A stretch of 40,990 bases of DNA from Planctomycetota bacterium (GTDB taxonomy: Bacteria > Planctomycetota > PLA2 > JAEUHO01). The first letter of the stretch is position 1; every line of letters begins with the position of its first letter. The notes under the pieces were generated by a model. It did not search any database and was not told the origin of the DNA. It saw nothing but the letters and a program-made list of their open reading frames with translations. The translations under genes were made by a program, and so were the position numbers. Positions 22,375-40,990 of the stretch are shown piece by piece. The stretch is from NCBI GenBank assembly GCA_030065025.1, contig JASJDY010000083.1:1-40990 (forward strand). Reading direction: 5' to 3'.

Positions 22375-22380
22375 TAGGCT
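22375..22380 (+). promoter_or_regulatory. TAGGCT -10 box, leaderless arrangement
   Basis: TAGGCT ends seven bases before the ATG at 22388, leaving no room for a ribosome site. Confidence 0.5.
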
Positions 22381-22387
22381 CCTGGGC

Positions 22388-22726: not shown

Positions 22727-22761
22727 CCCCGATCGACATCTGCTCACGGCCACGGCGCACT

Positions 22762-22845: not shown

Positions 22846-22889
22846 CGCGAGATCATGCGGCTGGGCGCACGCCTGAGAGGAGTTGCCAG

Positions 22890-23279: not shown

Positions 23280-23287
23280 GGAGGCGT

Positions 23288-23293
23288 AGCCTA
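23288..23293 (-). promoter_or_regulatory. TAGGCT -10 box, leaderless arrangement
   Basis: TAGGCT on the minus strand lies eight bases before the ATG at 23279, identical to the box before the STAS gene at 22388. Confidence 0.5.
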
Positions 23294-23349
23294 CCCCCCG
23301 GGTGCGCGCAGTCGTTGAGGCGCCCTGGCGCTCCGGGGATGCTACGCCG

Positions 23350-24495
23350 ATGCCTAGCCCCCGCGCCGAAGCCCCCTCGGGCATGGAATGGTTCCTCCTC
23401 CTCGCCGGTCTCGCCCTGGCGGGCGCCGCTGCCCTCGTCTGGGTGTTCGGTGCCGACTTCGGCACGGCCGAAGGCCCGCCGGCCGTCGAGCGCGAGCCCT
23501 TCGCGAAGGAGGTGCATCTCGCGAACCTGCGCCAGCTCACGTTCGCGGGTGAGAACGCCGAGGCCTACTGGTCCTTCGCCGAGGACGCGCTGATCTTCCA
23601 GTCGACCCGCCCGCCCTTCAAGGCCGACCAGATCTTCACGATGAAGCCCGACGGCAGCGACGTGCGCCGCGTCAGCACGGGCCTCGGACGCACGACCTGC
23701 GCCTACTTCCTGCCGGGCGACGAGCGCATCGTCTACGCGTCGACGCACGCGGCGGGCAAGGCGCCGCCGAAGCCGCCCAAGCGCGACCGCAAGCTGGGCT
23801 ACGTGTGGCCGATCTACAACGCGTACGAGATCTACTCGGCCAAGCGGGACGGCTCCGACCTGCGCGTGCTCACAAGCTCGCCCGGCTACGACGCCGAGCC
23901 CACCGTCTCGCCGGCCGGCGACCGCATCGTGTTCACTTCGACCCGCGACGGCGACCTCGACGTCTACTCCATGAACGTCGACGGCAGCGACGTGAAGCGC
24001 CTCACGACGACCGTGGGCTACGACGGCGGCGCGTTCTTCTCGTGGGACGGGAAGAAGATCGTCTGGCGCGCGCCGAACCGCGACGACGTGGACATCGAGG
24101 AGTCGAAGGCGCTGCTGAAGCGGCAGCTCGTGCGCCCGAACAAGCTCGAGATCTGGATCATGAATGCCGACGGCAGCGGCAAGAAGATGGTGACGAACAA
24201 CGGCGCCGCCAACTTCGCCCCCTTCTGGCATCCGGACGGCAAGCGCATCATCTTCAGCTCGAACATGCACGATCCGCGCGGCAGCAACTTCGAGCTCTAC
24301 CTGGTGAACATCGAGACGCTCGAGACGAAGCGCATCACGTACTTCGAGCGCAGGCGCCCCGGCGCCTACCGCAGCGACGACTTCGACGGCTTCCCGATGT
24401 TCACGCGGGACGGCAAGCGGCTCGTGTTCTGCAGCAACCGCTTCAATGACAAGCCGAACGAGACGAACATCTTCGTGGCGGACTTCGTCGAGTAG
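23350..24495 (+). CDS. TolB-like WD40/PD40 beta-propeller protein, membrane-anchored
   Basis: From ATG 23350 the product has 381 residues; ATG 23383 (MEWFLLLAGLALAG) is a second choice. One N-terminal hydrophobic helix anchors a periplasmic domain. The domain is built of TolB-type PD40 blades with the pattern S-P-A/D-G-x-x-I-V-F-T-S and an ending like MNVDGSDVKRLT, MNADGSGKKMVT or MKPDGSDVRRVS. At least five blades are visible. Such proteins bind partner proteins or sugars; no enzyme site is seen. It ends 7 bases from the convergent lipoprotein gene. Confidence 0.87.
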   Translation: MPSPRAEAPSGMEWFLLLAGLALAGAAALVWVFGADFGTAEGPPAVEREPFAKEVHLANLRQLTFAGENAEAYWSFAEDALIFQSTRPPFKADQIFTMKPDGSDVRRVSTGLGRTTCAYFLPGDERIVYASTHAAGKAPPKPPKRDRKLGYVWPIYNAYEIYSAKRDGSDLRVLTSSPGYDAEPTVSPAGDRIVFTSTRDGDLDVYSMNVDGSDVKRLTTTVGYDGGAFFSWDGKKIVWRAPNRDDVDIEESKALLKRQLVRPNKLEIWIMNADGSGKKMVTNNGAANFAPFWHPDGKRIIFSSNMHDPRGSNFELYLVNIETLETKRITYFERRRPGAYRSDDFDGFPMFTRDGKRLVFCSNRFNDKPNETNIFVADFVE

Positions 24496-24502
24496 GTCCT
24501 CA

Positions 24503-26707: not shown

Positions 26708-26708
26708 C

Positions 26709-27770
26709 TCACTCCCGGTGGAGAACGTCCAGGCGCCGGATCTCCGCGCGGCAGCCCTGCGCGAGGATCCCCACGTAGCCGCCTTCGCGGCCCTTCGGCC
26801 GCTCGATCTTGTGGACCTCGCGGCCGTTCACGAGCGCGTGGATGAAGTCCTTGCGGTAGCGCAGCTCGTACACCGTCCAGGCCGACGGGTCGTAGGGCTT
26901 CTTCAGCGCGGACGCGTCGCGCATGAAGACGCGATCCTTGTCGTCTTCGCCCTTGTACTCGAACCAGCGCAGCGCGCCGGAGAGCGTGCCGAGCCGTGAG
27001 TGGTCGTACTCCGCCTTCCAGGCCGCCATCAGCGCGACGAACGGCGACTCGTCGTAGGCCTTGGCGATGCGGGCCTCCATGACGACGTCGAAGTTCCCGC
27101 GGATCTCCTTCTGGTTGCGGATGTACGTGGCGAGGCCCTTCGTCTCGCCGACGATCACGCCGTCCACGACCTTCCACCACTGACCGCGACCGCCGTCCCA
27201 GTCGGCGATCTGCTTGCCGTCGAAGATGGCCTCCTTGCGCGCGCCGCGGCGGGACATGGTGCCGAGCATCTCGTTCGCACGCTTGTGTTCGGGGCGCAGC
27301 GTGAGGATGACCTCGAGCGCGCGCTGGGCGAGATCGGGGTCCTTCGTGCGGTACTTGGAGGCGATGCGCAGCACCTTGGCGACGTGTGCGTCGATCAGCT
27401 TCTCGAGCTCGCGCCCGTTGTCGTCGTGTTCCTCGAGTCGATCGAGTGCGCCCGCCTCGTAGTCCTTCCACGCCGCGGGGATGCCCGGGCTCGAGCGCAC
27501 CTCGCGCACGACCTGGCGGAACGCGACGACCGCGGCCTTCGTCTTCTCGGCGCCGAGCAGAGCTTCGCCGAGGCCGTAGCGCGCAGGCAGGCAGCCCGCC
27601 TCTTCCTCCAGGGCCTGGCGGTAGAGCTTCTCGGCCGCGGCGTAATTCTTCGCCTTCAGCGCCGCGTCGCCCTCGTCCACGAGGTCGAGGGCCGTATCCA
27701 TGTCGGCGAAGACCGTCGCCGCCGCCGCGGCGAGTAGGACCAGGACGAGAAGGACGCGCAGCGGGCTCAT
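26709..27770 (-). CDS. TPR-like plus DUF1080 (3-keto-disaccharide hydrolase-like) exported protein
   Basis: The 353-residue protein has a signal peptide (LLVLVLLAAAAATVFA). TPR-like helices cover about residues 25-150 (DEGDAALKAKNYAAAEKLYR). The C-terminal beta-jelly-roll of the DUF1080 type shows IFDGKQIADWDGG, WWKVVDGVIVGE and EIRGNFDVVMEARI. DUF1080 domains are often tied to sugar breakdown in Planctomycetota. The ATG overlaps the stop of the gene upstream by ATGA, and the upstream protein has the same plan, so the pair arose by duplication. Confidence 0.87.
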   Translation of the reverse strand: MSPLRVLLVLVLLAAAAATVFADMDTALDLVDEGDAALKAKNYAAAEKLYRQALEEEAGCLPARYGLGEALLGAEKTKAAVVAFRQVVREVRSSPGIPAAWKDYEAGALDRLEEHDDNGRELEKLIDAHVAKVLRIASKYRTKDPDLAQRALEVILTLRPEHKRANEMLGTMSRRGARKEAIFDGKQIADWDGGRGQWWKVVDGVIVGETKGLATYIRNQKEIRGNFDVVMEARIAKAYDESPFVALMAAWKAEYDHSRLGTLSGALRWFEYKGEDDKDRVFMRDASALKKPYDPSAWTVYELRYRKDFIHALVNGREVHKIERPKGREGGYVGILAQGCRAEIRRLDVLHRE

Positions 27771-28894
27771 CGCTTCGTCCCCACGCGCAGCACGCGGATC
27801 TCGGCGGCACAGCGCTGGTGGAACAGACCCAGGCGTCCGCTCAGCTCCTTGCGGCCGGCGACCGAGGCGTTCAGCACCTGCTTGCCGTCGAGGAAGACGC
27901 GCACCTTCCGCCCTTGGATGGCGACGGTCAGGCGGTGCCAGGTGCCCAGCCGCGAGGACTTCCGTGCGGCCTCGCCCACGTCGATGTTCTTGCCGCCCGA
28001 TGCGTGCACGATCGTCACGAGCGACTTCTGGGCGAAGGCCATGACGAACTCGTGCCCGCCGCGCCGCGCGACCGTCTCGTCCTGCGCGAACGCGAAGCCG
28101 AGCAGGTAGCCGTTGGCGTGCTCCTTCGTGAAGCGGAACTCCATGTCGTAGACGAACTCCTCCGGCGCGAGCTTGGCCGGGTCCGTCCAGAAGATCGTGT
28201 TGCCCTCGTTGTCGATCGTGAGCACCTTGCGCTTGTACGACGTGTTGTTCCCCGGCGGGATCGCACGCCGCGCCAGCAGGTCGTCCCAGCGCTCGATGCC
28301 GGGGATCGGCGACGCCTTGGGATCGATGGTGCCGTCGTCGGTGCTCGTCCCCTTCAGCTCGCCCAGCAGGCGGTTCGCCGCCTCGTGCTGCGGCTCGACG
28401 GACAGCAAGCGCTCGAGCGCATCGACCGCGATGTCCTCGTCGTCGCGCTGCAGCCGGGTGGCGAAGCCCACGAGCTTGGCACCGAACGCGGCCTGCAGTT
28501 TCTCGAGCTCCCTCTCGCCCTTGCCCAGCGTCGCGATGCGCTTCTCGGCGCGCTTGAGCAGGCGGGCGAGCTTCTTGTCCAGCGCGTCGCCCTGCACGCG
28601 GCACCCGTCACGGAAGGCGCGGTAGGCGCCCAGCGCCTCGCCCGGCTTCTTCATCTTTTCGAAGACCTGGCCGAGCAGGTACGCCGCCTCGAGGAGCTTC
28701 GGATCCTCCTCGCGCGCCCGGCGCAGCTTGACGACCGCTTCGTCGTACTTGCGGACCGAGATCGCCTTCTTCGCCTGCTGCAGGAGGAACGCGGCGACGT
28801 CCTCGTCGGCGCGGGCGCTCGGGGGGCCAAGCGGCGCCGAGAGCGCGGTCAGCACGATCCAGGCACAGATCCCGAGGCCGATCAGCCGGCGCAT
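27767..28894 (-). CDS. TPR-like plus LamG/DUF1080-like exported protein
   Basis: The 375-residue product starts at ATG 28894 (MRRLIGLGICAWIVLTAL), with a signal peptide ending near ARA and GGGAGAG upstream. TPR-like helices (AKKAISVRKYDEAVVKLRRA, LLEAAYLLGQVFEKMKKPGE) are followed by a beta-sandwich domain with WHRLTVAIQGRKVRVFLDGK, typical of concanavalin-like or DUF1080 folds. It is coupled to its downstream relative. No catalytic residues can be named. Confidence 0.85.
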   Translation of the reverse strand: MRRLIGLGICAWIVLTALSAPLGPPSARADEDVAAFLLQQAKKAISVRKYDEAVVKLRRAREEDPKLLEAAYLLGQVFEKMKKPGEALGAYRAFRDGCRVQGDALDKKLARLLKRAEKRIATLGKGERELEKLQAAFGAKLVGFATRLQRDDEDIAVDALERLLSVEPQHEAANRLLGELKGTSTDDGTIDPKASPIPGIERWDDLLARRAIPPGNNTSYKRKVLTIDNEGNTIFWTDPAKLAPEEFVYDMEFRFTKEHANGYLLGFAFAQDETVARRGGHEFVMAFAQKSLVTIVHASGGKNIDVGEAARKSSRLGTWHRLTVAIQGRKVRVFLDGKQVLNASVAGRKELSGRLGLFHQRCAAEIRVLRVGTKR

Positions 28895-28987
28895 ACGAGG
28901 TGCTCTCCCTGGCGGCGAGGATACCCGAAACCCAACGCTCCGCCGGGCGCACTGCCACAATGGTCTCCGACCGTCGGAGGGTCACCC

Positions 28988-30073
28988 ATGGCTGCACCGC
29001 TGCAGGACTTCGGGCGCGTGATGCGTGCCCTGTTCCGATTCGCGCGCTACATCTCGTTCGGGATCATCGGCCTGATGATCGTGTTCCTCGCGTTCCGCGT
29101 CGCCGAGGTCTACCGCTTCTTCGCCGACATCGAGCCGTGGCTCGGTACTGCGTTCCTCGTGGTGTTCGGGCTGCTGCTCGTGTTGCTCGTCGGTCGGCCG
29201 GTCTACCGCTTCCTGAAGGTGCCCGCTGCGCTGAAGCCGCCGCCGCTGCCGCCGATGGAGGAACGCCGCGGCAGGGACCTCGTGCGCCACCTCGCGTTCG
29301 TCGAGGGCTACCTCGCTGCGCTCGTGAAGAACCCCGAGTGGGAAGGGGCGCCTGCAGAAGTCGAAGCCGCGATCGAGCGCTGTCGCGCGCTGCGTGAGGA
29401 GGCGGCCCACGCGGGGCGCGAGGCTGTGGCCGCGCTGTCCGACCGCGTGGGCGAGCTCGAGCGCGACACCGTTCAGCGCCTGCTCGAGCCGCTCGACCGC
29501 AAGGTGCGTACCGTCATCCGACAGGAAGCCGTCGGCGTCGGCATCGCTACCGCCGTGTCGTGGAACGGAACGATCGACGCGTTCATCGTGCTCTGGCGCA
29601 ACTGCAACCTCGTGTCGCGGGTCGCGCGCATCTACTACGGCCGTCCCGGCGTGCGCGGCACGCTCGCGATCCTGCGCGACGTGTCGGCCGCGACCATCGC
29701 CGGCGCGTACCTGCAGGACCTCACCGAGGCGGCCGGCGGCGCGCTGGGCGGCCTGTTCGGCAAGACGGTCGGCGCGCTCGGCGGGCCGCTGCTCGACGGC
29801 GCCGTGAACGGCGTGGTGACGCTGCGTATCGGCTACATGGCCAAGGCCCGCTGCCGCTCGTTCAGCGCGTGGAACGAGGCCGGTCGCGTCGAGGCCGCGC
29901 GGGACGCCTTCAAGGAGGCGGGCGCGTTCTCGAAGGACGTGGTCACGGAGATCTTCAAGACGGTCGGCACCGGGCTGTGGAAGATCCCCGGCAAGGCGAT
30001 CGGCAAGCTCGGCGACGCGCTCGGCGGCTTCTTCAAGAAGCCCGAGGAGGGCGTGGAGCCTGCGGGGGCTTGA
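28988..30073 (+). CDS. YcjF/DUF697-family membrane protein
   Basis: The 361-residue protein has two close membrane helices at about residues 22-42 and 52-72. A soluble helical stretch follows, and then the DUF697 signature NGTIDAFIVLWRNCNLVSRV and YYGRPGVRGTL. Proteins of this type (YcjF) usually sit beside a YcjX GTPase; none is seen here. GGAGG lies eight bases before the ATG. The long open frame that continues upstream is a shadow of the opposite-strand gene. The C-terminus is glycine-rich and then lysine-rich. Confidence 0.84.
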   Translation: MAAPLQDFGRVMRALFRFARYISFGIIGLMIVFLAFRVAEVYRFFADIEPWLGTAFLVVFGLLLVLLVGRPVYRFLKVPAALKPPPLPPMEERRGRDLVRHLAFVEGYLAALVKNPEWEGAPAEVEAAIERCRALREEAAHAGREAVAALSDRVGELERDTVQRLLEPLDRKVRTVIRQEAVGVGIATAVSWNGTIDAFIVLWRNCNLVSRVARIYYGRPGVRGTLAILRDVSAATIAGAYLQDLTEAAGGALGGLFGKTVGALGGPLLDGAVNGVVTLRIGYMAKARCRSFSAWNEAGRVEAARDAFKEAGAFSKDVVTEIFKTVGTGLWKIPGKAIGKLGDALGGFFKKPEEGVEPAGA

Positions 30074-30078
30074 GCCAC

Positions 30079-30108
30079 TTGCACTTGCACTTGCACCTGC
30101 ACTTGCAC
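30079..30108 (+). repeat. TTGCAC hexamer tandem repeat after a stop codon
   Basis: Five hexamers, four TTGCAC and one CTGCAC, start five bases after the stop codon of the YcjF-like gene. They are non-coding in any supported gene. Confidence 0.85.
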
Positions 30109-30169
30109 TCGAGCAACCAAGCGAGGTGGATCGGAGCCAGGCCCGTGCATCGCTGGAGCATGTGTTCCA

Positions 30170-30222
30170 CGGGCGGGCGTTCAGCCCTTCGACTGCGTCT
30201 CAGGGCTTCCGGCCGCCCCTAC
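30170..30222 (-). repeat. Dispersed intergenic repeat, copy 3 (half copy)
   Basis: This segment begins CGGGCGGGCGTTC and ends CGGCCGCCCCTAC, the same two 13-bp blocks that bound the left half of the element at 7669-7800, read on the opposite strand. The stretch between also matches, with small gaps. It lies in the gap 30074-30334 between two forward genes. Confidence 0.85.
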
Positions 30223-30295
30223 CGATCCCGTGCCCGACGAAAGCCGCAGGATGATCGGTCTGCCGCACGCAACCCGATCCCCCTCACGCCGCTGC

Positions 30296-30301
30296 TAATC
30301 T
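30296..30301 (+). promoter_or_regulatory. Possible -10 box TAATCT before the 1289-residue repeat protein
   Basis: TAATCT lies 33 bases before the ATG at 30335. A start seven bases later would give a leader of about 26 bases containing the GGGAGGGAAG ribosome site. No -35 box is evident. Confidence 0.4.
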
Positions 30302-30334
30302 GCGCGATGCAACCCCTGGGGAGGGAAGTCAGCC

Positions 30335-33300
30335 ATGCGTTCCGGTCTCATGTGGCTCATCGTCTTGCTCGCCGTCGCCGCGGCGGGGTGGTTCCTCTTC
30401 GGAGCAGGTGACACCGGCGAAGGCCCGGCGGGCGACGGCGCAGACACGTCACCGGGCGAGGAGAGCGCGGACGTCACCGAAGGCCCCGGGCCCGAGCTCA
30501 TGGGGAGCGGCGGCGATCGTCCCATCGTGCCCACCGAGATTCGCGGCCGCGGCATGCTCCAGGGCGTCGTCCGCCTCTCCGGCGTCGGCATCGAGGCCGA
30601 CGTCGAGCTGCGCCACGTGACCGAGGTCGATCCAACGAACCCGTACCAGGGTGGTATGGAGCGCATGTTCATCGAGCGGCTGCTCGACTCGGGCATCTCG
30701 CCGAAGAAGCCCATCGGTCGCACGAGCACGAGCGCCGACGGCCACTTCAAATTCAAGGGGCTCGCGCCCGGCCTGTACGAGGTGCGCGCGATGTCCGCCG
30801 ACGGTGCGCTCGGCTTCGCGTCGGGCATGCTCCCACAGCGCGGCGCCCGCGTGGAGGTCAACGTCGACCTGCCCGATGGGCAGCAGGGCCTCAAGGGCCG
30901 CATCCTGTACGCCGACGACAAGCCGTTCCGCGGCATGGTCGTCGCGACGCCCGGCCAGCAGGCGTTCGCGGCGGCGATGATGGGCGGCGGTGGCCAGGTG
31001 CGCCCTGGCTTCACTGACGAGGAAGGCCGCTTCGAGCTGACCGGTCTGGCCAAGGGGCGCTATCAGATCTCGGCGATCATCCCCGGCGCGCTGCGCGTGA
31101 TGGGCGCGCCGATCGACCTCCCGTACCAGGGTGAGTACGAGTTGAAGATCCTGGTCGGCGGCACCACCGTGAAGGGCAAGGTCATCGCGGCGGCCACGGA
31201 GGAGCCGGTTGCCGGCGCCAACGTCTTCGGCGGCGGCGGCAACCCCGAGGCGAACTTCTCGATCTTCAGCACCCAGTCCGGCGAGGACGGCACCTTCGAG
31301 CTGACGATCCCCGCCGGGCGCGGCGGCGGCATGTTCGTGCGCGCGGCCGGCTACGCGCCGCAGATGGTCGAGTTCCGCGGCGGCGTCGACGAGAACGTCG
31401 TCGTGAGCATGCTCGCCCTAGGCAAGCTCAGTGGTCGCGTGACGGCCCAGGAGGGCGGCTCGGCGATCCAGGGGGTCACGGTCTTCGCCACGCCCCAGTC
31501 CGGTCGTGGGATGCCGTTCGGTGGAGGCCTCAACGCGGCGATCACGGACGCCGATGGCCGCTACACCTTCGACGGCGTGCAGCCCGGCGCGGTGAAGGTG
31601 CACGCCCTCGGCGGAGGCTGGGTGAGCGTGGGCATGAGCGGATTCGGGTTCGGCGACGTCAACACGCCGTATGTCGTGGAGCTCGAGTCCGGCAGCAGCG
31701 CCGAGCAGGACCTCGAGGTCATCGCCTCGGGCAAGGTGAAGGGACGCGTGCTCACGGACGACGGCAGGCCCGTGCCCGGCGCCGTCGTGCAAGCCGGAGC
31801 GCCCACGGGCATCCGCGAGATGGTCGCGGCCATGATGACCATGGGCATCTCGTTCGCAAGCGACGTGACGGACGGCGACGGTGCGTACGAGATCGACATG
31901 ATCGTGCCCGGCACGGACTACCAGCTCGCAGCCAAGGCCCCCGAGCACCCCGACGCGTCCTCGCAGAAGTTCACCGGCGCCTCGGGCAAGACCGAGACGA
32001 TCGACATCCGCTTCCCGAAGTCGCGTTGGCTCGAGGTCACGGTCGTCGAGAGCGGCGGCGGTCCGATCGCCGGCGTGATGCTGCGCATCGCGCCGAAGCG
32101 CGAGGGCAACATGCGGGTGGTGGTCTCTGACTTCTTCGGCGCCGGCACCTTCTGGACCACGGACGCCGAGGGCAAGGCCCGCGTCGGGCCGCTGCCCGAG
32201 GGCGAGCTCGAGATCGGTGCGTCCGCGGCCGGCTACATCCAGGACGAGCGGGACGTGCCGGGCGGTGACGAAGCCAGCATCAAGCTCGAGCTGAGGAAGG
32301 GACTCGTCATCGCGGGCCGCATCGTGCTGCCCGAGGGCATTCCGGCGCAGAGCGTTCGCGTGCGCATCGAGCGCGACCGTGCAGGTCCGGGCGGCGAGTG
32401 GTTCTACGAGCGAGCACCGGTGGATGCCGCGGGGCGCTTCCGGCTCGACACGATCAAGTCGCCGGGCGAGTACAAGATCACAGGCAGCGGCAACTGGGAG
32501 AACCGTCGGTTCAGCGGCACGGCGCGGGCGGATGCCGGAGACGAAGATGTCGTCCTCGAGCTGACCGAGAGCGACCCGGAGAAGCGCGAGACGGTCGAGG
32601 TGAGCGTGCTCGACGCCGAGGGCAAGCCCGTGCCGTCGGGGCGCATCACGCTGTGGTCGTTCCGCCAGAACGGGAGCAACAGCAGCGGCACCCGCATCAA
32701 CAACGGCAAGGCGTTCTTCCGCGGGTTCCGGAGCGAGGGCGACCTGTACGTCGAGGTGTTCGAGCTCGTCGGCAGCACCCGCGGCGCGACGATCCAGCCC
32801 ATCAGCATCACCAGCGGCAAGGCGGAGGTGCGCCTACCGCGGCCTGTGTCCATCGCCGGCACGGTCAAGGGCCCCGACGGCAAGGGTGTCGCCGGCGTGC
32901 GCGTCTCGGCGCGTCCCGTGCACCCGCACCGCGGTACATCCCGCACCGGTCGCCAGCACGGTGAAGCGATCAGCGATGCCCAGGGACGCTTCGAGGTCCG
33001 CGGGCTCGGCCCGCTCACGTACAAGCTCGCGATCCGGGCGCCGTCCGAGTACGCACCCGTGCCGACGATCGACGCCCAGGGCGGCGATGAGCGCATCGCG
33101 GTGGAGCTGCGCACAGGCGCGGCCGCGACGCTGACGATCCTCGACTACGAAGGCAAGCCCGTCGCCGGCGCCTCGGCGTACTTGCGCGCCGTCCAGGAGG
33201 ATCGCGAGCAGCCCTCGTACCGCTCCTTCGGCGGGCCGACCTCCGATGCCCAGGGCGTGCTCGCCCTCAAGGGGCTCGAGCCTGGGGTCGTCTTCGACCT

Positions 33301-34204
33301 GACCGTCAACCCGCCCGGCACGCGCCGCCAGGACCTGCGCACCATTCAGCTCAAGAAGTGGTCGCCGGCGAACGAGACGCTCACCTTCCAGCGCGCCTAC
33401 ACCATCAAGGGGCAGGTGCGCACCACGGAGGGCAAGATCCCCACGGAGGTCAACCTGCGCTGGCGCAAGGTCGGCACCCAGCGCTGGCAGTACGGCGGCG
33501 ACGTGCAGGAAGACGGCAGCTTCACGATCTCCCAGCTCGAGGCCGGGCGCTACGAGCTGAAGGTCGGGGGCGGCGTCGAGGCGGTTGCCATGCCGCGGGC
33601 GCCGGGCGAGCCGGCGCCGCCGGAGCCCAACGTCGTCACGGCGCGCGCCGGCGCGACGGGGGTGCAGCTCGTCGTGGATCTGGGCGCGACGCTCACGGTC
33701 AAGGTGCGCGGGCTGAGCGGGACCGGCGAGGACCAGGGTCGCACCGCGTACCTGCGCGAGAGTGTGCAGCGCGGCGCGCAGTTCATCCACGGCCGGTGGG
33801 AGCGGAGCGACACCATCGCGTTCCGCGGCCTCAAGGCCGACTCGACGTACACCCTCTGGATCGGCGGCCTGCCCGGCGGCAGGTACGTGCGCCAGACCGG
33901 CGTGCGGGCGCAGCGGACGACGCTCACGGTCGACGCCCAGGAGGGCGGCACGATCCGCGGCGTCATCAAGGTGCCGCCCGAGGCGGGCACGCTGCGCCAC
34001 ATCCACGTGAGCGCCTTCCGCCAGGACGGCGCCGGCTCCAACGCGAACGCCGATCTGGAGACGGGCCGCTTCACGCTCGAGGGCCTGCCGGAGGGCGAGT
34101 GGACCCTGACCGCCTACGGCTGGGGTGAGGACTCCGGCCAGTGGCGCGGCACGGCCACGGCCTCCGTCGGCGGCGAGGTCGAGATCGTCCTCAAGAAGCA
34201 ATAG
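30335..34204 (+). CDS. Giant membrane-anchored protein with carboxypeptidase-regulatory-like repeats (1289 aa)
   Basis: One N-terminal helix (MWLIVLLAVAAAGWFLFGAG) anchors the protein; an acidic Gly/Asp-rich spacer follows. The rest is a string of roughly a dozen beta-sandwich repeats of about 90 residues, such as GRILYADDKPFRGMVVAT with DEEGRFELTGLAKGRYQI, GRVLTDDGRPVPGAVVQA and GTVKGPDGKGVAGVRVSA. The hallmark DAQGRFEVRGLGP recurs in most. No enzyme site is recognised. The plan matches the 960-residue protein at 10791. The protein may act as a long surface or periplasmic scaffold. A clear GGGAGGGAAG ribosome site precedes the ATG. Confidence 0.88.
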   Translation: MRSGLMWLIVLLAVAAAGWFLFGAGDTGEGPAGDGADTSPGEESADVTEGPGPELMGSGGDRPIVPTEIRGRGMLQGVVRLSGVGIEADVELRHVTEVDPTNPYQGGMERMFIERLLDSGISPKKPIGRTSTSADGHFKFKGLAPGLYEVRAMSADGALGFASGMLPQRGARVEVNVDLPDGQQGLKGRILYADDKPFRGMVVATPGQQAFAAAMMGGGGQVRPGFTDEEGRFELTGLAKGRYQISAIIPGALRVMGAPIDLPYQGEYELKILVGGTTVKGKVIAAATEEPVAGANVFGGGGNPEANFSIFSTQSGEDGTFELTIPAGRGGGMFVRAAGYAPQMVEFRGGVDENVVVSMLALGKLSGRVTAQEGGSAIQGVTVFATPQSGRGMPFGGGLNAAITDADGRYTFDGVQPGAVKVHALGGGWVSVGMSGFGFGDVNTPYVVELESGSSAEQDLEVIASGKVKGRVLTDDGRPVPGAVVQAGAPTGIREMVAAMMTMGISFASDVTDGDGAYEIDMIVPGTDYQLAAKAPEHPDASSQKFTGASGKTETIDIRFPKSRWLEVTVVESGGGPIAGVMLRIAPKREGNMRVVVSDFFGAGTFWTTDAEGKARVGPLPEGELEIGASAAGYIQDERDVPGGDEASIKLELRKGLVIAGRIVLPEGIPAQSVRVRIERDRAGPGGEWFYERAPVDAAGRFRLDTIKSPGEYKITGSGNWENRRFSGTARADAGDEDVVLELTESDPEKRETVEVSVLDAEGKPVPSGRITLWSFRQNGSNSSGTRINNGKAFFRGFRSEGDLYVEVFELVGSTRGATIQPISITSGKAEVRLPRPVSIAGTVKGPDGKGVAGVRVSARPVHPHRGTSRTGRQHGEAISDAQGRFEVRGLGPLTYKLAIRAPSEYAPVPTIDAQGGDERIAVELRTGAAATLTILDYEGKPVAGASAYLRAVQEDREQPSYRSFGGPTSDAQGVLALKGLEPGVVFDLTVNPPGTRRQDLRTIQLKKWSPANETLTFQRAYTIKGQVRTTEGKIPTEVNLRWRKVGTQRWQYGGDVQEDGSFTISQLEAGRYELKVGGGVEAVAMPRAPGEPAPPEPNVVTARAGATGVQLVVDLGATLTVKVRGLSGTGEDQGRTAYLRESVQRGAQFIHGRWERSDTIAFRGLKADSTYTLWIGGLPGGRYVRQTGVRAQRTTLTVDAQEGGTIRGVIKVPPEAGTLRHIHVSAFRQDGAGSNANADLETGRFTLEGLPEGEWTLTAYGWGEDSGQWRGTATASVGGEVEIVLKKQ

Positions 34205-34327
34205 ATCGGGCCCCTGGCCCCGTGTGTGTGCGTTAGGCCAATCGTCTGACTTCCGTGCTTGAGTCCTCCAGGCCCGGGGTCGAAGAGGGATCCGCGAAGC
34301 CTCATGACGGGGCGGAGGACGAGATCC

Positions 34328-34681
34328 ATGGCCAGCGGTGAATCCGTTGAGGTCCTGAACCTCAAGCGGCTCGAGGACAGCACGGGCGGAGATACCGAGC
34401 TCATCGTCGAGCTCGCGGAGCTCTACATCGCCGACACGGAGGCGCGCCTGCCCGAGCTGCTGGAGGCCGCCGAGGCCCAGGAGCTCGAGCGCGTCGGTCG
34501 CGTCGCGCACGGGCTCAAGGGCGCGTCGGCGTCCCTCGGCTGCGACGAGGCGGCTGCCGCCTTCCGTCGCATCGAGGAGATGGGCCGCCAGGGCATCGGG
34601 GACGACATGGATACGGCCGTAGAGCAGGCCCAGGCGGCTTGGCGCCGGGCGTGCGAGCGCTTGCGAGAGGTGGCGGCGTAG
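34328..34681 (+). CDS. Hpt-domain phosphotransfer protein
   Basis: The 117-residue protein is a single histidine-phosphotransfer domain. The motif RVAHGLKGASASLG holds the phosphate-accepting His61 and Lys64 (H-x2-K-G). Helices LIVELAELYIADTEARL before it fit the four-helix bundle. It passes phosphate between receivers in a phosphorelay. The response regulator gene 29 bases downstream is its likely partner. GGAGGA precedes the ATG. Confidence 0.92.
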   Translation: MASGESVEVLNLKRLEDSTGGDTELIVELAELYIADTEARLPELLEAAEAQELERVGRVAHGLKGASASLGCDEAAAAFRRIEEMGRQGIGDDMDTAVEQAQAAWRRACERLREVAA

Positions 34682-34710
34682 CCGCCTGAAGGCACCTGAA
34701 GGGAGGCGCC

Positions 34711-35331
34711 ATGAGGATCCTGATCGCGGACGACCAGGTGATCGCACGCCGCATTCTCGAGGAAGCGGTGGGCGACCTCGGCCACGAGGTCACCGTCGTG
34801 TGCGACGGGCGCGAGGCGTGGGATCAGCTCACCGCCACGCGCTATGACGTCGTCATCAGCGACTGGGTCATGCCGCGCATCGACGGCATCGAGCTCTGCC
34901 GCCGCATCCGCGGCCGCAAGGGCGAGCCCTTCACCTACGTGATGCTCGTGAGCGCGCGCAACTCCACCGAAGACGTCGTCAAGGGCATCATGGCGGGCGC
35001 GAACGACTTCATGACGAAGCCGATCGAGCGCGCCGAGCTGCGAGCGCGGCTGCATGCCGCCCAGCGGGCGGTCGACCTCGAGCGCTCGCTGGCGAGCCGG
35101 CTCATCGACCTCGAGCGCGCGCTCGAGGAGGTCGCCCAGCTGCGCAGCCTGCTGCCCATCTGCATGTACTGCAAGAGCATCCGCAACGACCAGCAGGCCT
35201 GGGACGACATCGAGGAGTATCTGCACCGGCACGCCAACGCCGAGTGCACGCACTCGATCTGCCCCGACTGCTACGAGCAGCACGTCCAGCCGATGCTCGA
35301 CGAGATGCACCGGAGCAAGAAAGCCTCGTAG
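34711..35331 (+). CDS. Response regulator with a C-terminal zinc-ribbon-like module
   Basis: The 206-residue protein begins with a complete receiver domain: Asp7-Asp8, phosphate-accepting Asp51 (DVVISDWVMP), Ser81 and Lys103 (MTKP). A helical linker leads to a C-terminal module LPICMYCKSIRND ... HSICPDC with Cys151, Cys154, His181, Cys184 and Cys187. This module recurs on signalling proteins in many bacteria, but its output is not known to me. There is no DNA-binding domain. The Hpt gene just upstream suggests a two-gene relay. Confidence 0.92.
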   Translation: MRILIADDQVIARRILEEAVGDLGHEVTVVCDGREAWDQLTATRYDVVISDWVMPRIDGIELCRRIRGRKGEPFTYVMLVSARNSTEDVVKGIMAGANDFMTKPIERAELRARLHAAQRAVDLERSLASRLIDLERALEEVAQLRSLLPICMYCKSIRNDQQAWDDIEEYLHRHANAECTHSICPDCYEQHVQPMLDEMHRSKKAS

Positions 35332-35354
35332 AGGCGCGGCCCCGCGCGGTCAGG

Positions 35355-35360
35355 TAGTCT
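35355..35360 (+). promoter_or_regulatory. TAGTCT -10 box before hemH, leaderless arrangement
   Basis: TAGTCT ends nine bases before the ATG of hemH, with no ribosome site between. It is one of the recurrent TANNNT boxes placed close to start codons here. Confidence 0.45.
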
Positions 35361-35369
35361 CCTCCGGCC

Positions 35370-36329
35370 ATGAAGACCGGCGTCTGCCTCGTCCAGCTCG
35401 GTACGCCCGATGAGCCCACCGTGCCCGCGGTGCGTCGCTACCTCGAGGAGTTCCTCCTCGACCGGCGCGTCGTGGATCTGACGCCCTGGCTGTGGAAGCC
35501 GATCCTCTACGGGATCATCCTGCGCACGCGGCCCAAGCGCTCCGCCGCGAACTACCAGCTCGTGTGGACCGACGAGGGCTCGCCCCTGCTGCTCTACACC
35601 GAGTCGCTCGCGCGCAAGCTCGGCGCCGCCCTCGGCGACGACTTCGTCGTGAACTGCGGCATGCGCATCGGCAACCCGTCCGTCGGCTCGCGACTCGACG
35701 AGCTCGTGGAGGCCGGCTGCGAGCGCATCCTCGTGCTGCCCTGCTATCCGCAGTGGTCCACGGCCACGAACCTCTCGGTGGAGGACGCGGTCGGCTGGTG
35801 GCGTGACGAGCGGCCCGATGCGCCGGAGACGGTGGTGATCGGTAGCTTCCCCGACCACCCGGCCTACATCGCCGCGCTCGCGCGCTCGGTGCGCGAGGCC
35901 GGTGTCGAAGCGAGCGCCGAAGCCCCGTTGGTGATCTCGTTCCACGGCATCCCGCAGAAGTACGCCGACAAGAAGGGCGACCCGTATCCGCAGGAGTGCG
36001 AGGCGACGGCGCGCGCGCTCGCGGCGGCTCTCGAGCTTCCTGAGGATGCCTGGCGCATCGCCTACCAGAGCCGCTTCGGTCCGGCGGCGTGGCTGCAGCC
36101 CTACTGCGACGAGCTGCTGCAGGAGCTTGCGGAGAGCGGCATCCGTACGGTGAGCGTGGTCTCGCCCTCCTTCCTCGCCGACTGCCTCGAGACGATCGAC
36201 GAGATCGGGCGCGAGCTGCGCGAGGAGTTCGAAGAGGCGGGCGGCACATCGTTCACGCGGGTGCCGTGCCTGAACGACGCGGACGACCTGGTGGACGCGC
36301 TGGCGGAGATCCTGCGGGCGAACGCTTGA
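35370..36329 (+). CDS. hemH: Ferrochelatase
   Basis: Ferrochelatase inserts iron into protoporphyrin IX, the last step of protoheme synthesis. The 319-residue length is normal. The catalytic His192 lies in VISFHGIP, and the conserved Glu274 lies in DCLETIDEI. YQSRFGPAAWLQPY matches the E. coli-type enzymes. Heme made here would feed the ResB-CcsA system encoded 28 kb away. The gene ends 9 bases before the convergent next gene, with no visible terminator. Confidence 0.96.
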   Translation: MKTGVCLVQLGTPDEPTVPAVRRYLEEFLLDRRVVDLTPWLWKPILYGIILRTRPKRSAANYQLVWTDEGSPLLLYTESLARKLGAALGDDFVVNCGMRIGNPSVGSRLDELVEAGCERILVLPCYPQWSTATNLSVEDAVGWWRDERPDAPETVVIGSFPDHPAYIAALARSVREAGVEASAEAPLVISFHGIPQKYADKKGDPYPQECEATARALAAALELPEDAWRIAYQSRFGPAAWLQPYCDELLQELAESGIRTVSVVSPSFLADCLETIDEIGRELREEFEEAGGTSFTRVPCLNDADDLVDALAEILRANA

Positions 36330-36338
36330 GCCGCAGCT

Positions 36339-37595
36339 TCAGTCCGTCGTCACCACGCGGTCCCGCGCGCGCGTCGCTCGCTTCAGGAACAGGATGCCGA
36401 ACGACGTGTGGACGTGGTCGCCCCAGCTGCCCAGCGAAGGCGCCTGCCGCTCCAGCAGCATGTCCGCGCCCTTCCGGTACCAGTCGTGCTCGCCCAGCCA
36501 GCGCCGGCCGGTGAGCATGCCCATGCGCTCGAGGCCGTACACGTAGTAGAGGTGGTGCGCGTTCCGCGGATGGCCCGGATTGCCGGTCACGCTGAAGTGC
36601 TCCTGCATCCACGCCAGGCCGTCGCGGATCGAGTCGCGTGACTTCTTGCGGTCGGCGCCCTTGAAGCGCCGGCTGCGCCACAGACCCTCCTGGCAGATCG
36701 CGACGCACGCCACCCCGGCCGTCGTCATCGAGCCCGTCTCGGGGTGGGTCCAGAGCGTCTTCTCACCGAGCGGGCCGTCCTTCTTGCCGGGGCTGTAGTG
36801 GAAGCCGCGCGCCTCCGCCGGCGTCTTCGACTGGAAGGCGTAGCCCTCGCGGACACGGTGGTCCAGCAGGTCGACCTTCGGCCCCTTCACGTGCTGGAGT
36901 GCGAGCAGTCCGTGGAGGGCGGAGCGCCAGACCTGGGCATCGACCTTGAACCCCATGTCCATGATCGCGCGCAAGCCCAGCAGCGCGTACTGCGCGTTGC
37001 TCAGGTCGTGGCCCGTTGCCGTGTCGGAGGCCTTGATGTCGTAGTGCCACAGGCCGCTCGCGTTCTGGGCCTTCAGCAGGTAGTCGAGGCCGGCCTTCAC
37101 GCGCTCGACCTCGCGCTTGCTGAGCTTCTTGCGTGTCTGCTTCGGCCGCAGGCGCTTGCTGCGCTTCGTCCCCACGTCGGTGTCACGCGTGTCGAGCTTG
37201 GGCTCGTGCGCCGCGTGGATGACCATCATGTACAGGCCGACGCTGTAGACACGCCGGAGGGGCATGCCGTCGAGGACGCGGAAGGCCTTCTCGACCTGGG
37301 CGTCCGAGCGCGGGACCCCGGACTTGAGCAGTGCCAGCAGGGGCAGCGCGGTGTGCCCCATTGCCTGGTCGTGGGCCGGGTTGCCCCAGTGCCCGGTGTC
37401 GGCCTGCTCCAGGCGCAGGTTCATGACGGCCTTCTTGATGGCCTCGTGGACCGCGAGCCGGAAGCTCGGGGGATAGCGCTCCACTTTCTTGGCGCCCTTG
37501 CGGGTCGGCGGCGCTCCCTGGGCCGGGCCCGCGCAGGCGAGTGCAAGCAGCAGGGCGGCCACGAGCCACGGGGTGGGGGAGCGCGAACGAGCCAT
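36339..37595 (-). CDS. Exported terpene-cyclase/prenyltransferase-like repeat protein
   Basis: The 418-residue product from ATG 37595 has a signal peptide (WLVAALLLALACAGPAQG). The rest is a helical alpha/alpha-barrel-like protein with repeats resembling squalene-hopene-cyclase motifs. Examples are QADTGHWGNPAHDQAMGHTA, QNASGLWHYD, TAGVACVAICQEGLW and RQAPSLGSWGDHVHTSFGIL. The acidic DxDD motif of true cyclases is not seen, and an exported protein would not be expected to make terpenes. Such proteins are common in Planctomycetota with unknown function. TAGACT lies eight bases before the ATG, with no ribosome site. Confidence 0.83.
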   Translation of the reverse strand: MARSRSPTPWLVAALLLALACAGPAQGAPPTRKGAKKVERYPPSFRLAVHEAIKKAVMNLRLEQADTGHWGNPAHDQAMGHTALPLLALLKSGVPRSDAQVEKAFRVLDGMPLRRVYSVGLYMMVIHAAHEPKLDTRDTDVGTKRSKRLRPKQTRKKLSKREVERVKAGLDYLLKAQNASGLWHYDIKASDTATGHDLSNAQYALLGLRAIMDMGFKVDAQVWRSALHGLLALQHVKGPKVDLLDHRVREGYAFQSKTPAEARGFHYSPGKKDGPLGEKTLWTHPETGSMTTAGVACVAICQEGLWRSRRFKGADRKKSRDSIRDGLAWMQEHFSVTGNPGHPRNAHHLYYVYGLERMGMLTGRRWLGEHDWYRKGADMLLERQAPSLGSWGDHVHTSFGILFLKRATRARDRVVTTD

Positions 37596-37603
37596 CCGCG
37601 ACG

Positions 37604-37609
37604 AGTCTA
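37604..37609 (-). promoter_or_regulatory. TAGACT -10 box, leaderless arrangement
   Basis: TAGACT on the minus strand lies eight bases before the ATG at 37595, and no ribosome site is present. The same hexamer precedes lysR. Confidence 0.5.
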
Positions 37610-37734
37610 GCAATGCCCGCGTCCCGGCGGACGGCGCCCGTCTCTCGGCGCCACGAACGCGACTCTTGAGCGTCCATCAAGGCCGCATAAAGCCCTCAGA
37701 ATCAACGAGTTCGGGCAAAGGTCTTCCCGGATCG

Positions 37735-37767
37735 CGGATTCGGGGGTAGAAATGTCGCCCGAATCCG
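37735..37767. promoter_or_regulatory. Perfect 10-bp inverted repeat upstream of the tiny lipoprotein gene
   Basis: CGGATTCGGG (37735-37744) and CCCGAATCCG (37758-37767) flank a 13-base spacer holding TAGAAAT, which has a -10-like form. The site lies 82 bases before the ATG at 37849. It could be an operator around a promoter or an RNA hairpin in the leader; the sequence alone does not decide. Confidence 0.55.
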
Positions 37768-37848
37768 TAGGAACCGCCTGCGGCCAACCAAGGGTAGAGG
37801 CGTAGGGACATCCCGACCGGAGTCTCGCGCACTCGAGGGAGAGATCCA

Positions 37849-37971
37849 ATGTCCAAGCTTCGCGCCATCCTGCTCGTCGCGCTCGTCCTGTGTGCCGGCA
37901 CCACCATGGCCGCCTGCAGCACGTTCGGCTGCGGTTGCCCCTGCAACCCCTGCGGCGAGGGCCCCAAGTAG
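37849..37971 (+). CDS. Tiny Cys-rich lipoprotein (40 aa)
   Basis: This 41-codon gene encodes MSKLRAILLVALVLCAGTTM, a signal peptide, and then AACSTFGCGCPCNPCGEGPK. The lipobox is MAAC. The mature peptide after cleavage would have only 18 residues with five Cys, including a CGCPCNPC cluster able to bind a metal. The ATG has GGGAGAG seven bases upstream. A structured upstream region and a textbook terminator bracket it, so it is an independent unit. It resembles the small entericidin-like class of lipoproteins in size only. Function is unknown. Confidence 0.8.
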   Translation: MSKLRAILLVALVLCAGTTMAACSTFGCGCPCNPCGEGPK

Positions 37972-37999
37972 TCTGACTACTTGACACCAAAACGATGGA

Positions 38000-38039
38000 G
38001 GCCGGTTCCGCTCACGCGGAACCGGCCTTCTTCTTTTTT
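38000..38039 (+). terminator. Strong Rho-independent terminator
   Basis: GGCCGGTTCCG (38000-38010) pairs perfectly with CGGAACCGGCC (38017-38027) around a 6-base loop, and TTCTTCTTTTTT follows. It ends the 40-residue lipoprotein unit. It is the only classical stem plus T-tract terminator I found in the window. It also lies directly after the tupC stop, where the opposite strand shows a weaker TCGTTTT tail. Confidence 0.93.
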
Positions 38040-38040
38040 G

Positions 38041-38607
38041 TCATGCGTGCAGGTCGATGACGCGCGTGATGCGCGCGGTTCCCAGGTCGGGCGCCGCGAT
38101 GACGAGCGTGCCTTCGTAGCTCACGAGCGCTTCGTTCACCGCAGTCGTGCCTTCGTCGTCCAGCGCGGCGTACGGTTCATCGAGGAGGAGCAGCTCCGGC
38201 TCGGTAGCCAGCGCACGCGCGATCGCGACACGCCGGCGCTCTCCGCCGGACATGGCCTTGGCCGGACGACCGGCGAGGTGCGCGGCGCCGAGGCGCGACA
38301 GCCAGGTGTCGGCTGCGGCAGCCGACTTGCCGTGCAGCCGCAGCGCATAGGCCACATTCGCGCGCGCAGAGCCGCGGAAGAAGTAGGGGCGCTGGTGGAC
38401 GAGCACCGCGCGCCCGCGCCGCGGCACGCCTTCGAGTGTTCCGCCCGAGAGCGTCTGCAGGCCGGCCAGGACGCGCAGCAGCGTCGACTTGCCGCTGCCG
38501 TTGGGTCCGCGGACGCCCAGGCGCTCGCCGCCCTGGATCTCCAGCGCAGCGAGCTGCAGCGCCTGCACGTCGCCGAAGCGTACGGAGAGGTCGCGCCCGC
38601 GGATCAC
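38041..38607 (-). CDS. tupC: Tungstate ABC transporter ATP-binding protein
   Basis: This 188-residue ATPase has Walker A GPNGSGKST (34-42), the signature SGGER (120-124) and Walker B LLLLDEP (Asp143, Glu144). It powers uptake by the permease encoded upstream. It is short for an ABC ATPase and has no extra C-terminal domain. The GTG at 38607 overlaps the permease stop as GTGA. The substrate is inferred from the TupA-like binding protein in the same cluster. Confidence 0.9.
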   Translation of the reverse strand: MIRGRDLSVRFGDVQALQLAALEIQGGERLGVRGPNGSGKSTLLRVLAGLQTLSGGTLEGVPRRGRAVLVHQRPYFFRGSARANVAYALRLHGKSAAAADTWLSRLGAAHLAGRPAKAMSGGERRRVAIARALATEPELLLLDEPYAALDDEGTTAVNEALVSYEGTLVIAAPDLGTARITRVIDLHA

Positions 38608-39299
38608 GACTCGCGCTCCCGCTCGAGCAGGAACGCGATCGTCGCGATCACGCACGCGAGCGCGATCAAGATCAGTCCCGGCGCGACGGCCTTCGCGAAG
38701 TTGCCCTTCGAGAGGTCGAGCACGATCGTCGAAGCCAGCGTGCGGGTGCGCAGCTCGAGGTTGCCGCCGACGGGAATCGCGACGCCGAGTTCCGAGAAGC
38801 AGCGCGCGAACGCGGCCAGGATCGCCGCGACGATCGGCACGCGCACCTCGCCCAGCATCGTGAGCATCGCCCGCTGCCGTCCCGCGCCAAGCGTCAGCGC
38901 CGTCTCGAGCGGCGTGCCGCGCTGCGCACGCACTGCCGCGTGCGTGAAGGTGCCGAGGATGGGGAAGGCGAGGAGGAACTCGCCCGCGACGATCGCCTGC
39001 TTCGTGTACAGCGAGTCGAGCCAGCCGAGCGGCCCCTGGCGACTCAGCATGCCGAAGACGATGAGGCCGACCACGACCGTTGGCACGAACATGCCCACAC
39101 GCAGCACGAACACCTGGAGGCGGTACCCGCGCGGGCGATAGAGGCCGAGCCACGCGCCGTAGGGAATCGCCACGAGCGCGGCGAGCGTGACCGCGGTGAC
39201 GGTGCAGTAGAGCGTGACGCCGACGGCGTGGAAGACCTGCTGGTCGCCGCCTACGACGAGCCGAAAAGCCTCCTGAATGCCCTCCCACAGGAACTCCAC
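38604..39299 (-). CDS. tupB: Tungstate ABC transporter permease
   Basis: The 231-residue membrane protein has about five to six helices, including GVTLYCTVTAVTLAALVAIP, LRVGMFVPTVVVGLIVFGML and AVAPGLILIALACVIATIAF. The cytoplasmic coupling loop is LGAGRQRAMLTMLGEVRVP. The GTG start has GGGAG ten bases upstream. It lies 5 bases after tupA and overlaps tupC. Confidence 0.9.
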   Translation of the reverse strand: MEFLWEGIQEAFRLVVGGDQQVFHAVGVTLYCTVTAVTLAALVAIPYGAWLGLYRPRGYRLQVFVLRVGMFVPTVVVGLIVFGMLSRQGPLGWLDSLYTKQAIVAGEFLLAFPILGTFTHAAVRAQRGTPLETALTLGAGRQRAMLTMLGEVRVPIVAAILAAFARCFSELGVAIPVGGNLELRTRTLASTIVLDLSKGNFAKAVAPGLILIALACVIATIAFLLERERES

Positions 39300-39304
39300 G
39301 TCTG

Positions 39305-40150
39305 TCAGTCTCCCGCAGCGTGGGGATGGAAGAGCACCTCGCCGTCCATGCGAAAGGCGCCGATGCGCGCCTGGCCCTCGGGTGAGGTCAGATGGTCGAG
39401 CAGGCGCCGCGCCGCGTCCGTACGCGCGTGGGGGTGCCGCTGCGGGTTCACGAGCATCGCGCCGTAGGCATTGCGCAGATGCGGGTCACCCTCCACGAGC
39501 ACCTCGAGATCCTTGGTTCTCCGCGCCGCGAGGAACGTGCCGCGATCCGTCAGCACGTAGGCGCGACGTTGATCGGCCATCGTCAGGCAGGGCCCCATGC
39601 CCTGGCCGGCCTTCAGGTAGGTATCGGCCCCGCTGCTCGGGTAGTTCGCGTACACGCCGGCGTGAGCCCACAGCTCGAGCTCGCGGATGTGCGTGCCCGA
39701 GTCGTCTCCGCGCGAGACGAACAACGCTCTGTTCGCTGCGATGGCGGCGAGCGCCTTGCCGGCGTCGCGCATGCCACGGATGCCGGCCGGATCCGATGGC
39801 GGACCGACGATGACGAAGTCGTTCCACATCACGTCGCGCCGGTCGATGCCGTGCCCCGCTGCGATGAACGCGTCTTCGCGCGAGCGCGCGTGAACCAGCA
39901 CGAGGTCTGCGTCGCCGCGCTCGCCGAGGGCCAGGGCCCGACCGGTGCCGACGGCGATGACCTTGACCTGGATACCGGTGGCCTCGGACCAGGGCTCGAG
40001 GAGATGGCTCAGGAGACCGGAGTTCTCGGTGCTCGTCGTCGTGGCGAGCGTGATGCTGCGCTCGCCGGCGGCAGGACCGTCGTAGCCGGACACGAAGAGT
40101 GCGATCGCACCCACCGCCAGCAGCAGCAGGGGCAGGAACGCGCGGCTCAT
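39305..40150 (-). CDS. tupA: Tungstate-binding periplasmic protein
   Basis: TupA captures tungstate outside the membrane for the TupBC importer. The 281-residue protein has one N-terminal hydrophobic segment (LPLLLLAVGAIALFVSG). The anion-binding motif TTTSTENSGLL (Thr37-Ser40) and SRGDDSGT (146-153) are the marks of the TupA/WtpA-like tungstate binders. They separate it from ModA molybdate proteins, which lack TTTS. It starts 12 bases after the molybdopterin oxidoreductase gene, which would use the metal. Confidence 0.91.
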   Translation of the reverse strand: MSRAFLPLLLLAVGAIALFVSGYDGPAAGERSITLATTTSTENSGLLSHLLEPWSEATGIQVKVIAVGTGRALALGERGDADLVLVHARSREDAFIAAGHGIDRRDVMWNDFVIVGPPSDPAGIRGMRDAGKALAAIAANRALFVSRGDDSGTHIRELELWAHAGVYANYPSSGADTYLKAGQGMGPCLTMADQRRAYVLTDRGTFLAARRTKDLEVLVEGDPHLRNAYGAMLVNPQRHPHARTDAARRLLDHLTSPEGQARIGAFRMDGEVLFHPHAAGD

Positions 40151-40162
40151 GGGGTGGTGGCC

Positions 40163-40990
40163 TCAGGCAGGTTCGACGCGCACGGCAGCGTACTTGAACG
40201 ACGGGATCTTGCCGAACGGGTCGAGCTCGTCGGTGGTGAGCAGGTTGGCCGCCGCCTCCCGGAAGCTGAACGGGAGGAAGACGCTGCCCTTCGACGTGCG
40301 CGTCGAGGCGCGCGCCTTCACGCGGAGGCTGTTGCGCCGCGTGGTCAGCTGCACGAAGCCTCCATCTTCGACACCGAGCGCCTGGAGGTCGTCCGGATGG
40401 ATCTCGCAGGCGGCTTCAGGCCGGATCGCGTCGAGCGCCTTGGCCCGGCGCGTCATCGAGCCGGTGTGCCAGTGCTGCAGCGAGCGGCCCGTGTTCAGGA
40501 CGAACGGATACTCGGCGCTCGGCAGCTCGGCCGGCGGGATGGTCTCCGCCGGCGAGAACTTCCCGCGGCCCGAGGGCGTGGGGTAGCCGTCGCCGAAGAG
40601 GACGACCTCGCCGTCCGACGTCTCGGGGTCTTCGCACGGCCACAGCTTGCCGGGGCCGCCGAGGTGGTCGTACGTGAGGCCCTTGTAGCTGTCGTTCAGC
40701 GCGAGGTGCTCGTTCCACACCTCCTCGACGCTGTCGTACTTCTGCGGGTAGCCCATGCGCGTCATGACGTCGCACAGGATCTCCCAATCGAGGCGCGCCT
40801 CGCCCGGCGGCTCGAGCGCCTTCACGCCGAGCTGCACGCGGCGGTCGGTGTTCGTGTACGTGCCTGTCTTCTCGAAGTAGCTCGTCGCAGGCAGCACGAC
40901 ATCCGCGGCCTCGGCTGTCTCCGTGAGGAAGATGTCCTGCACGACGAGGAAGTCGAGACTGCAGAACGCTTCGCGGGCGTGGGCGACGTT
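40163..40990 (-). CDS. Molybdopterin oxidoreductase, formate-dehydrogenase alpha-like, C-terminal part
   Basis: The frame is open to the window edge, so only the last 275 residues are seen. ETAEAADVVLPATSYFEKTG is the end of the molybdopterin domain. NTGRSLQHWHTGSMTRRAK starts the dinucleotide-binding C-terminal domain, and this pattern is typical of FdhF/FdhA-type formate dehydrogenases. The active-site Cys or Sec and the iron-sulfur motifs lie outside the window. Formate oxidation is the likely reaction. The tungstate transporter genes follow at once on the same strand, so the metal may be tungsten instead of molybdenum. Confidence 0.88.
   Translation of the reverse strand, partial: NVAHAREAFCSLDFLVVQDIFLTETAEAADVVLPATSYFEKTGTYTNTDRRVQLGVKALEPPGEARLDWEILCDVMTRMGYPQKYDSVEEVWNEHLALNDSYKGLTYDHLGGPGKLWPCEDPETSDGEVVLFGDGYPTPSGRGKFSPAETIPPAELPSAEYPFVLNTGRSLQHWHTGSMTRRAKALDAIRPEAACEIHPDDLQALGVEDGGFVQLTTRRNSLRVKARASTRTSKGSVFLPFSFREAAANLLTTDELDPFGKIPSFKYAAVRVEPA

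Follow-up and report, generated by a model that had tools for sequence, protein, structure and literature searches.

The question raised by this locus is whether a 40-codon open reading frame is a gene, and what its product, leader and terminator would do. The frame lies on the forward strand of a 40,990-nt stretch of DNA (the window) from a Planctomycetota genome (3.9 Mb, 89% complete); the relatives named below are Planctomycetota MAGs. Small lipoproteins are under-annotated, and the envelopes of Planctomycetota are unusual. An earlier note had described a stand-alone Cys-rich lipoprotein unit, with a tiny gene that has a ribosome site and a lipobox. The ORF was found as described, with GAGGGAG as the ribosome site and MAAC as the lipobox, and the unit is supported, together with a conserved leader and a strong terminator (Table 1).

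Table 1. Features of the lipoprotein locus and its neighbours (window coordinates)
Feature	Position	Strand	Evidence
Divergent secreted 424-aa protein, weakly similar to squalene-hopene cyclase repeats	36339–37613	−	G003/G005 orthologues without leader and lipoprotein
Conserved non-coding leader/regulatory region	about 37690–37848	+	86% (G002) and 77% (G004) identity
10-bp inverted repeat of the earlier note	37735–37767 (arms 37735–37744/37758–37767)	+	3′ arm invariant, 5′ arm not
Alternative 7-bp hairpin CCGYAGG-N5-CCUGCGG	37765–37783 (arms 37765–37771/37777–37783)	+	Present in each of the three genomes, with one U-G/C-G change
Ribosome-binding site GAGGGAG, ATG 7 nt downstream	37835–37841	+	AGGGAGAG kept in G002/G004
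Cys-rich lipoprotein CDS, 40 aa	37849–37971 (including stop)	+	G002/G004 orthologues; G007 homologue; pS 0.232 versus pN 0.011 (G002)
Predicted type II signal peptide, residues 1–22, lipobox MAA before Cys23	37849–37914	+	Sequence; lipobox Cys invariant in alignments
Predicted mature lipopeptide CSTFGCGCPCNPCGEGPK, lipidated Cys1 and four thiols in CxCxCxxC	37915–37968	+	Sequence; CGCPCNPCGEGP identical in G002/G004
Intrinsic terminator, strong, with a stem of 15 pairs and a T-rich + strand tail	37997–38040 (stem, loop and tail 37997–38030)		Hairpin in G002/G004, weaker T tail
Convergent ABC transporter ATPase, tupC-like (5′ end approximate)	38041–38640	−	PF00005
tupB-like permease	38604–39299	−	NF041773, 151 bits (below cut-off 320); NF038017 above cut-off
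tupA-like tungstate-type binding protein	39305–40150	−	PF12849; NF041772, 196 bits (below cut-off 400)

The 40-codon ORF is a real gene under natural selection in related uncultured Planctomycetota. In two genomes of the same genus (G002 and G004), an orthologue sits at the equivalent site, flanked by the divergent 424-aa gene and by the tup-type transporter, and encodes a protein 98% and 79% identical, respectively, to that of the window; a homologue with 57% identity was found in another genus of the same family (G007). The dN/dS comparison proposed in the earlier note gave seven synonymous changes and one non-synonymous change against G002. Constraint was weaker against G004 (pS 0.369, pN 0.184), with changes mostly in the signal peptide and none in the CGCPCNPCGEGP stretch. 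Frameshifts in relatives, which the same note had named as evidence against the gene, were absent: the indels in the G004 coding sequence are of 3 and 9 bases and keep the reading frame. Its suggested search for short ORFs with the lipobox–Cys pattern in relatives recovered the orthologues and a multigene family. Because the ORF has only 40 codons and spurious ORFs abound in this genome, it might be suspected of being open by chance in GC-rich DNA, but the frame-preserving indels, the low pN/pS against G002, the invariance of the lipobox Cys and of the CxC...NPC core, and the existence of paralogues refute this explanation, to which we assign a negligible probability.

The surroundings of the gene were compared among the relatives. 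The tup transporter and the lipoprotein gene lie between formate dehydrogenase-like and divergent genes both in the window (38041–40990) and in G004, and G002 agrees with this arrangement as far as its contig reaches. The lipoprotein gene was not found at the corresponding readable places of G001, G003 and G005, genomes whose incompleteness makes the absence uncertain. The formate dehydrogenase-like gene of G003 and G005 directly follows the divergent gene, as read from sequence; the tup genes, near which no lipoprotein candidate was detected, are located elsewhere in these genomes, so the tup–lipoprotein module moved or was gained. Since the divergent gene has orthologues in these two genomes without the leader and the lipoprotein, it is a neighbour only. 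Related stretches of the divergent 424-aa protein number 4–18 per genome in this family.

The ORF translates as MSKLRAILLVALVLCAGTTMAACSTFGCGCPCNPCGEGPK. The N-terminal MSKLR is followed by 17 mostly hydrophobic residues and then by MAAC, the sequence pattern of an Lsp substrate; the homologues carry LAGC, MVAC or similar at this position, and the lipobox Cys was invariant in alignments of 15 and of 26 family members. The Pfam lipid-attachment model PF08139 gave no match in the window protein and an E value of 0.44 for one paralogue. From signal-sequence rules, we infer export, diacylation on Cys23 and cleavage, with a predicted mature peptide of 18 residues. The earlier note had proposed a mature peptide of about this length with five Cys for binding. 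The length holds, but because the first mature Cys would be the lipidation site, four free thiols remain and not five; these four are packed within eight residues.

The window protein is a short member of a family of Cys-rich lipoproteins. About 35 small Cys-rich lipoproteins were catalogued in the same GTDB family by a combination of profiles and a script that accepted ORFs with a lipobox, four or more Cys and a ribosome site; within the window, the script picked ORF 37849–37971 only. The list of paralogues in the source genome itself comes from profile searches, which may have missed some. The window protein shares with the family the MxKxR-type signal peptide, the lipobox Cys and the subsequent GCGC/CC and (N/D)PC motifs, and scored E values of 1.3e-25, 3.7e-13 and 1.1e-8 against three profiles (A2, A4 and A6), all of which include the window sequence itself. 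Throughout the family, Cys makes up about 23% of the mature residues, the commonest Cys spacing is CxxC, and the mature parts contain no His and hardly any Met. Other members carry up to 17 thiols. The most Cys-dense long relative seen was a 96-aa lipoprotein of G009:C93 (L146 2317–2607) with 18 mature-part Cys and a tail reading CPAPCPAPC. Non-lipidated Cys were even in number in 25 of the 35 members (binomial p 0.008, for members that are related to each other and with one script parse corrected by hand).

Profile matches reached about ten per genome, some of them weak. Against 392 Planctomycetota genomes, convincing matches of the stricter profile were confined almost entirely to the same GTDB family, while the broader profile also reached another family (f33) with real short Cys-rich lipoproteins, which may be either homologous or convergent. 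Searches of Pfam, NCBIfam, PDB and PHROGs gave no match for the lipoprotein family. We conclude that these proteins form a new family within a known kind of protein, the small Cys-rich envelope lipoproteins, and belong to neither the OmcA nor the YTV group. So Cys-dense a multigene lipoprotein family, absent from Pfam and NCBIfam, points to an undescribed thiol or metal chemistry at the cell surface.

In five genomes (G000, G001, G004, G006 and G007), two to four of the Cys-rich lipoprotein genes are clustered beside purD, the identity of which was confirmed by TIGR00877 in G000; in G000, G004 and G007, a Fur-family gene is close to this cluster. The cluster encodes distinct lipoprotein types, one with PVYVSPCCPAPSQG (loci L157, L112, L149, L144, L148 and L160), and its genes in G004:C40 are located at L157 4096–4311 and 4607–4735 and at L112 2417–2635. 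Arsenic genes adjoin two other paralogues: that of G001:C133 (L158/L168) is next to ArsS (400 bits, cut-off 300) and an ArsC-like gene (below cut-off), and that of G003:C193 (L142/L164) is next to an ArsM-like gene (below cut-off) and ArsS (405 bits). The arsenic-gene neighbours of these two paralogues suggest a link to arsenic handling. A tie of the window gene itself to arsenic was rejected, since in neither G000 nor G002 did an ArsS match exceed the cut-off.

A lipid-anchored peptide with four thiols among eight residues, together with relatives carrying many more, suggests thiolate chemistry at the envelope. The likeliest function, which we propose tentatively from sequence features, is the binding of soft metals or metalloids by thiolates tethered to the membrane. 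The lipopeptide, with its thiols in the CxCxCxxC arrangement, would be held at the envelope membrane and, with its Cys-rich paralogues, would act much as a metallothionein does, its thiolates buffering or sequestering these metals or metalloids within the envelope; the leader would adjust lipoprotein production to demand. In favour of this function we counted the orthology, synteny and frame conservation of the gene, the selection on its leader, the multigene family with its CxxC preference and its lack of His and near-lack of Met, the arsenic genes by two paralogues, the Fur-family regulator by the purD cluster, and the tungstate-type ABC transporter that adjoins the window copy and both orthologues. 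These neighbours lean toward metals or metalloids, short of proof. Against it we counted that arsenic neighbours occur in 2 of about 35 members, with the lack of ArsS above cut-off in G000 and G002, and that the lipoprotein gene is convergent to tup and so is not co-transcribed with it. In addition, the four Cys could be oxidized in an aerobic envelope, and the even free-Cys bias fits disulfides at least as well as metal ligation.

This bias, which leans toward disulfides, bears on the main rival to the metal ligand, a structural envelope lipoprotein whose thiols would join other Cys-rich proteins into a stabilizing, disulfide cross-linked outer layer. Many paralogues per genome and the high Cys content would suit such a layer, and there are precedents for it, a similar part being presumed for Cys-rich wall proteins in Planctomycetes. 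OmcA of Chlamydia, from the same PVC superphylum, has 88 aa and 15% Cys, is proven to be a lipoprotein and is cross-linked in the outer membrane complex, and omcA is co-transcribed with omcB, a large Cys-rich gene (PMC1403754); Cys-rich YTV proteins occur in Planctomycete cell walls (PMC8567305). OmcA is the nearest described protein that the window lipoprotein may resemble in its action at the envelope. The comparison is by description only, and unlike the 88-aa, omcB-linked and cross-linked OmcA, the window protein has 40 aa and is encoded by a stand-alone gene, beside which no omcB-like partner was found, the neighbours being the cyclase-like secreted protein and the tup-type transporter. 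The YTV wall proteins are likewise Cys-rich envelope proteins of Planctomycetota, but they carry YTV domains and are reported from Planctomycetales only (PMC8567305); Pfam and NCBIfam searches found no YTV domain in the 40-aa window protein. A peptide of 18 residues, with its four Cys packed into eight of them, is also very small for a scaffold, the window gene has no large Cys-rich partner next to it, and the arsenic-gene and Fur-regulator neighbours of the paralogues misfit a purely structural role. We place a disulfide scaffold somewhat below the metal ligand in likelihood.

A third explanation is that the thiols serve at the envelope as a redox buffer, as a sensor or as a sink that takes up reactive electrophiles, with neither a dedicated metal nor a structural role. 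The dominance of CxxC spacing and the Fur/PerR-type regulator near the lipoprotein cluster are consistent with this explanation, but a thioredoxin fold and a nearby partner reductase are lacking and catalysis would demand a larger peptide, and we regard this explanation as improbable. As for the metal ligand, bacterial metallothioneins of the SmtA type are likewise very short, Cys-dense and able to bind soft metals via thiolates. Metallothioneins are, however, cytosolic and not lipidated, and no metallothionein family model in Pfam or NCBIfam matched the window protein. The earlier note had proposed metal binding or disulfides at the membrane: the Cys-rich lipoprotein stands, the five binding Cys do not, and either chemistry remains a matter of interpretation.

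The same note had ascribed to the gene a strong terminator of its own. Its stem contains 11 GC pairs, with a loop of 4 and the tail TTCTTTTTTG. Within the scanned stretches (1–20000 and 21000–40990), it was by far the strongest terminator, all others having at most 8 pairs, its own reverse-strand form apart; the number of terminators found in these stretches equalled the shuffled expectation. Its strength is therefore as described, but it is not purely the gene's own. It sits just where the lipoprotein gene and, from the other side, the ABC ATPase gene (stop at 38041) converge, and its stem can form on either strand, indicating that it probably serves both. We consider the terminator real and probably common to the lipoprotein gene and the convergent transporter gene.

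Upstream of the gene, the identity of the leader to G002 and G004 (86 and 77%) exceeds that at the 4-fold sites of the flanking tupB and divergent genes (57–59% to G002 and 48–53% to G004; Fisher p from 3e-4 to 4e-14), which shows that the leader is under selection. Identity drops to background upstream of about 37690, and the conservation spans about 150 nt, continuing right into the start of the CDS. Single-base frame-breaking indels among the relatives show that the leader is not a coding extension. Its assignment to the divergent 424-aa gene was rejected, the G003 and G005 orthologues of that gene having no such leader. Known Rfam riboswitches and leader RNAs resemble it in being conserved 5′ leaders before one gene, but at E values up to 10 no Rfam family reached its gathering score, the sub-threshold matches being to terminator-like, sRNA or miRNA models, and its identity with a known riboswitch or leader RNA was likewise rejected. 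A covariance model of the leader matched at the three orthologous loci only among 17 genomes of the class, with no match before the lipoprotein paralogues. The conserved leader is a concrete regulatory element that is open to testing.

Within this leader, the earlier note had pointed to a perfect 10-bp inverted repeat, of which a covariation check was advised, and to a −10-like TAGAAAT. The repeat exists, but such repeats (loop 3–20) are near chance expectation, with four distinct centres in the 41-kb window versus 0–2 in five shuffles, and it is not conserved as a stem: one pair is lost in G002 and two in G004, all changes are in the 5′ arm, and none is compensated. We therefore discarded it as a conserved RNA hairpin; its 3′ arm lies within an invariant 21-nt block. 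TAGAAAT was also dropped as a −10 element, as no sigma-70-like site passed the promoter scan anywhere. All three genomes have TTGA(G/A)C 14–15 nt before (C/T)(A/G)TAAA at about 37667–37692, with poor spacing.

The leader may act as a DNA regulatory region (an operator or promoters) and not as an RNA element, a possibility that we place somewhat short of even. The sequence is conserved with no consistent predicted fold, it includes the invariant block TAGAAATGTCGCCCGAATCCG, and it has no Rfam family match. The predicted ensembles differ among the three leaders, the start codon pairing with the 5′ GGGCA in the window and partly in G002 but not in G004, and a consensus fold predicted from these three sequences alone had 1 compensated pair of 41. 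Nevertheless, conservation over such a length and into the CDS start is long for an operator, the 7-bp hairpin is kept, and the fold of the window sequence has a z-score of −3.2 over 162 nt that include 12 nt of the CDS, against values between −0.8 and −2.3 for the leaders of the three genomes by themselves. If the leader acted as RNA, the invariant GGGCA near its 5′ end would have two alternative partners: UGUCC at the lipoprotein start codon, or GCCC within the invariant block. The full proposal, in which the leader is a new cis-regulatory RNA of this genus that responds to metals or redox state and serves an undescribed envelope metal/metalloid-buffering lipoprotein system, we hold to be a long shot. 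An upstream ORF (37752–37805, ATG at 37752, MSPESVGTACGQPRVEA) begins inside the invariant leader block, and its first codons are common to all three genomes; in G002 it and the main ORF form one continuous frame, and in G004 it has a different length.
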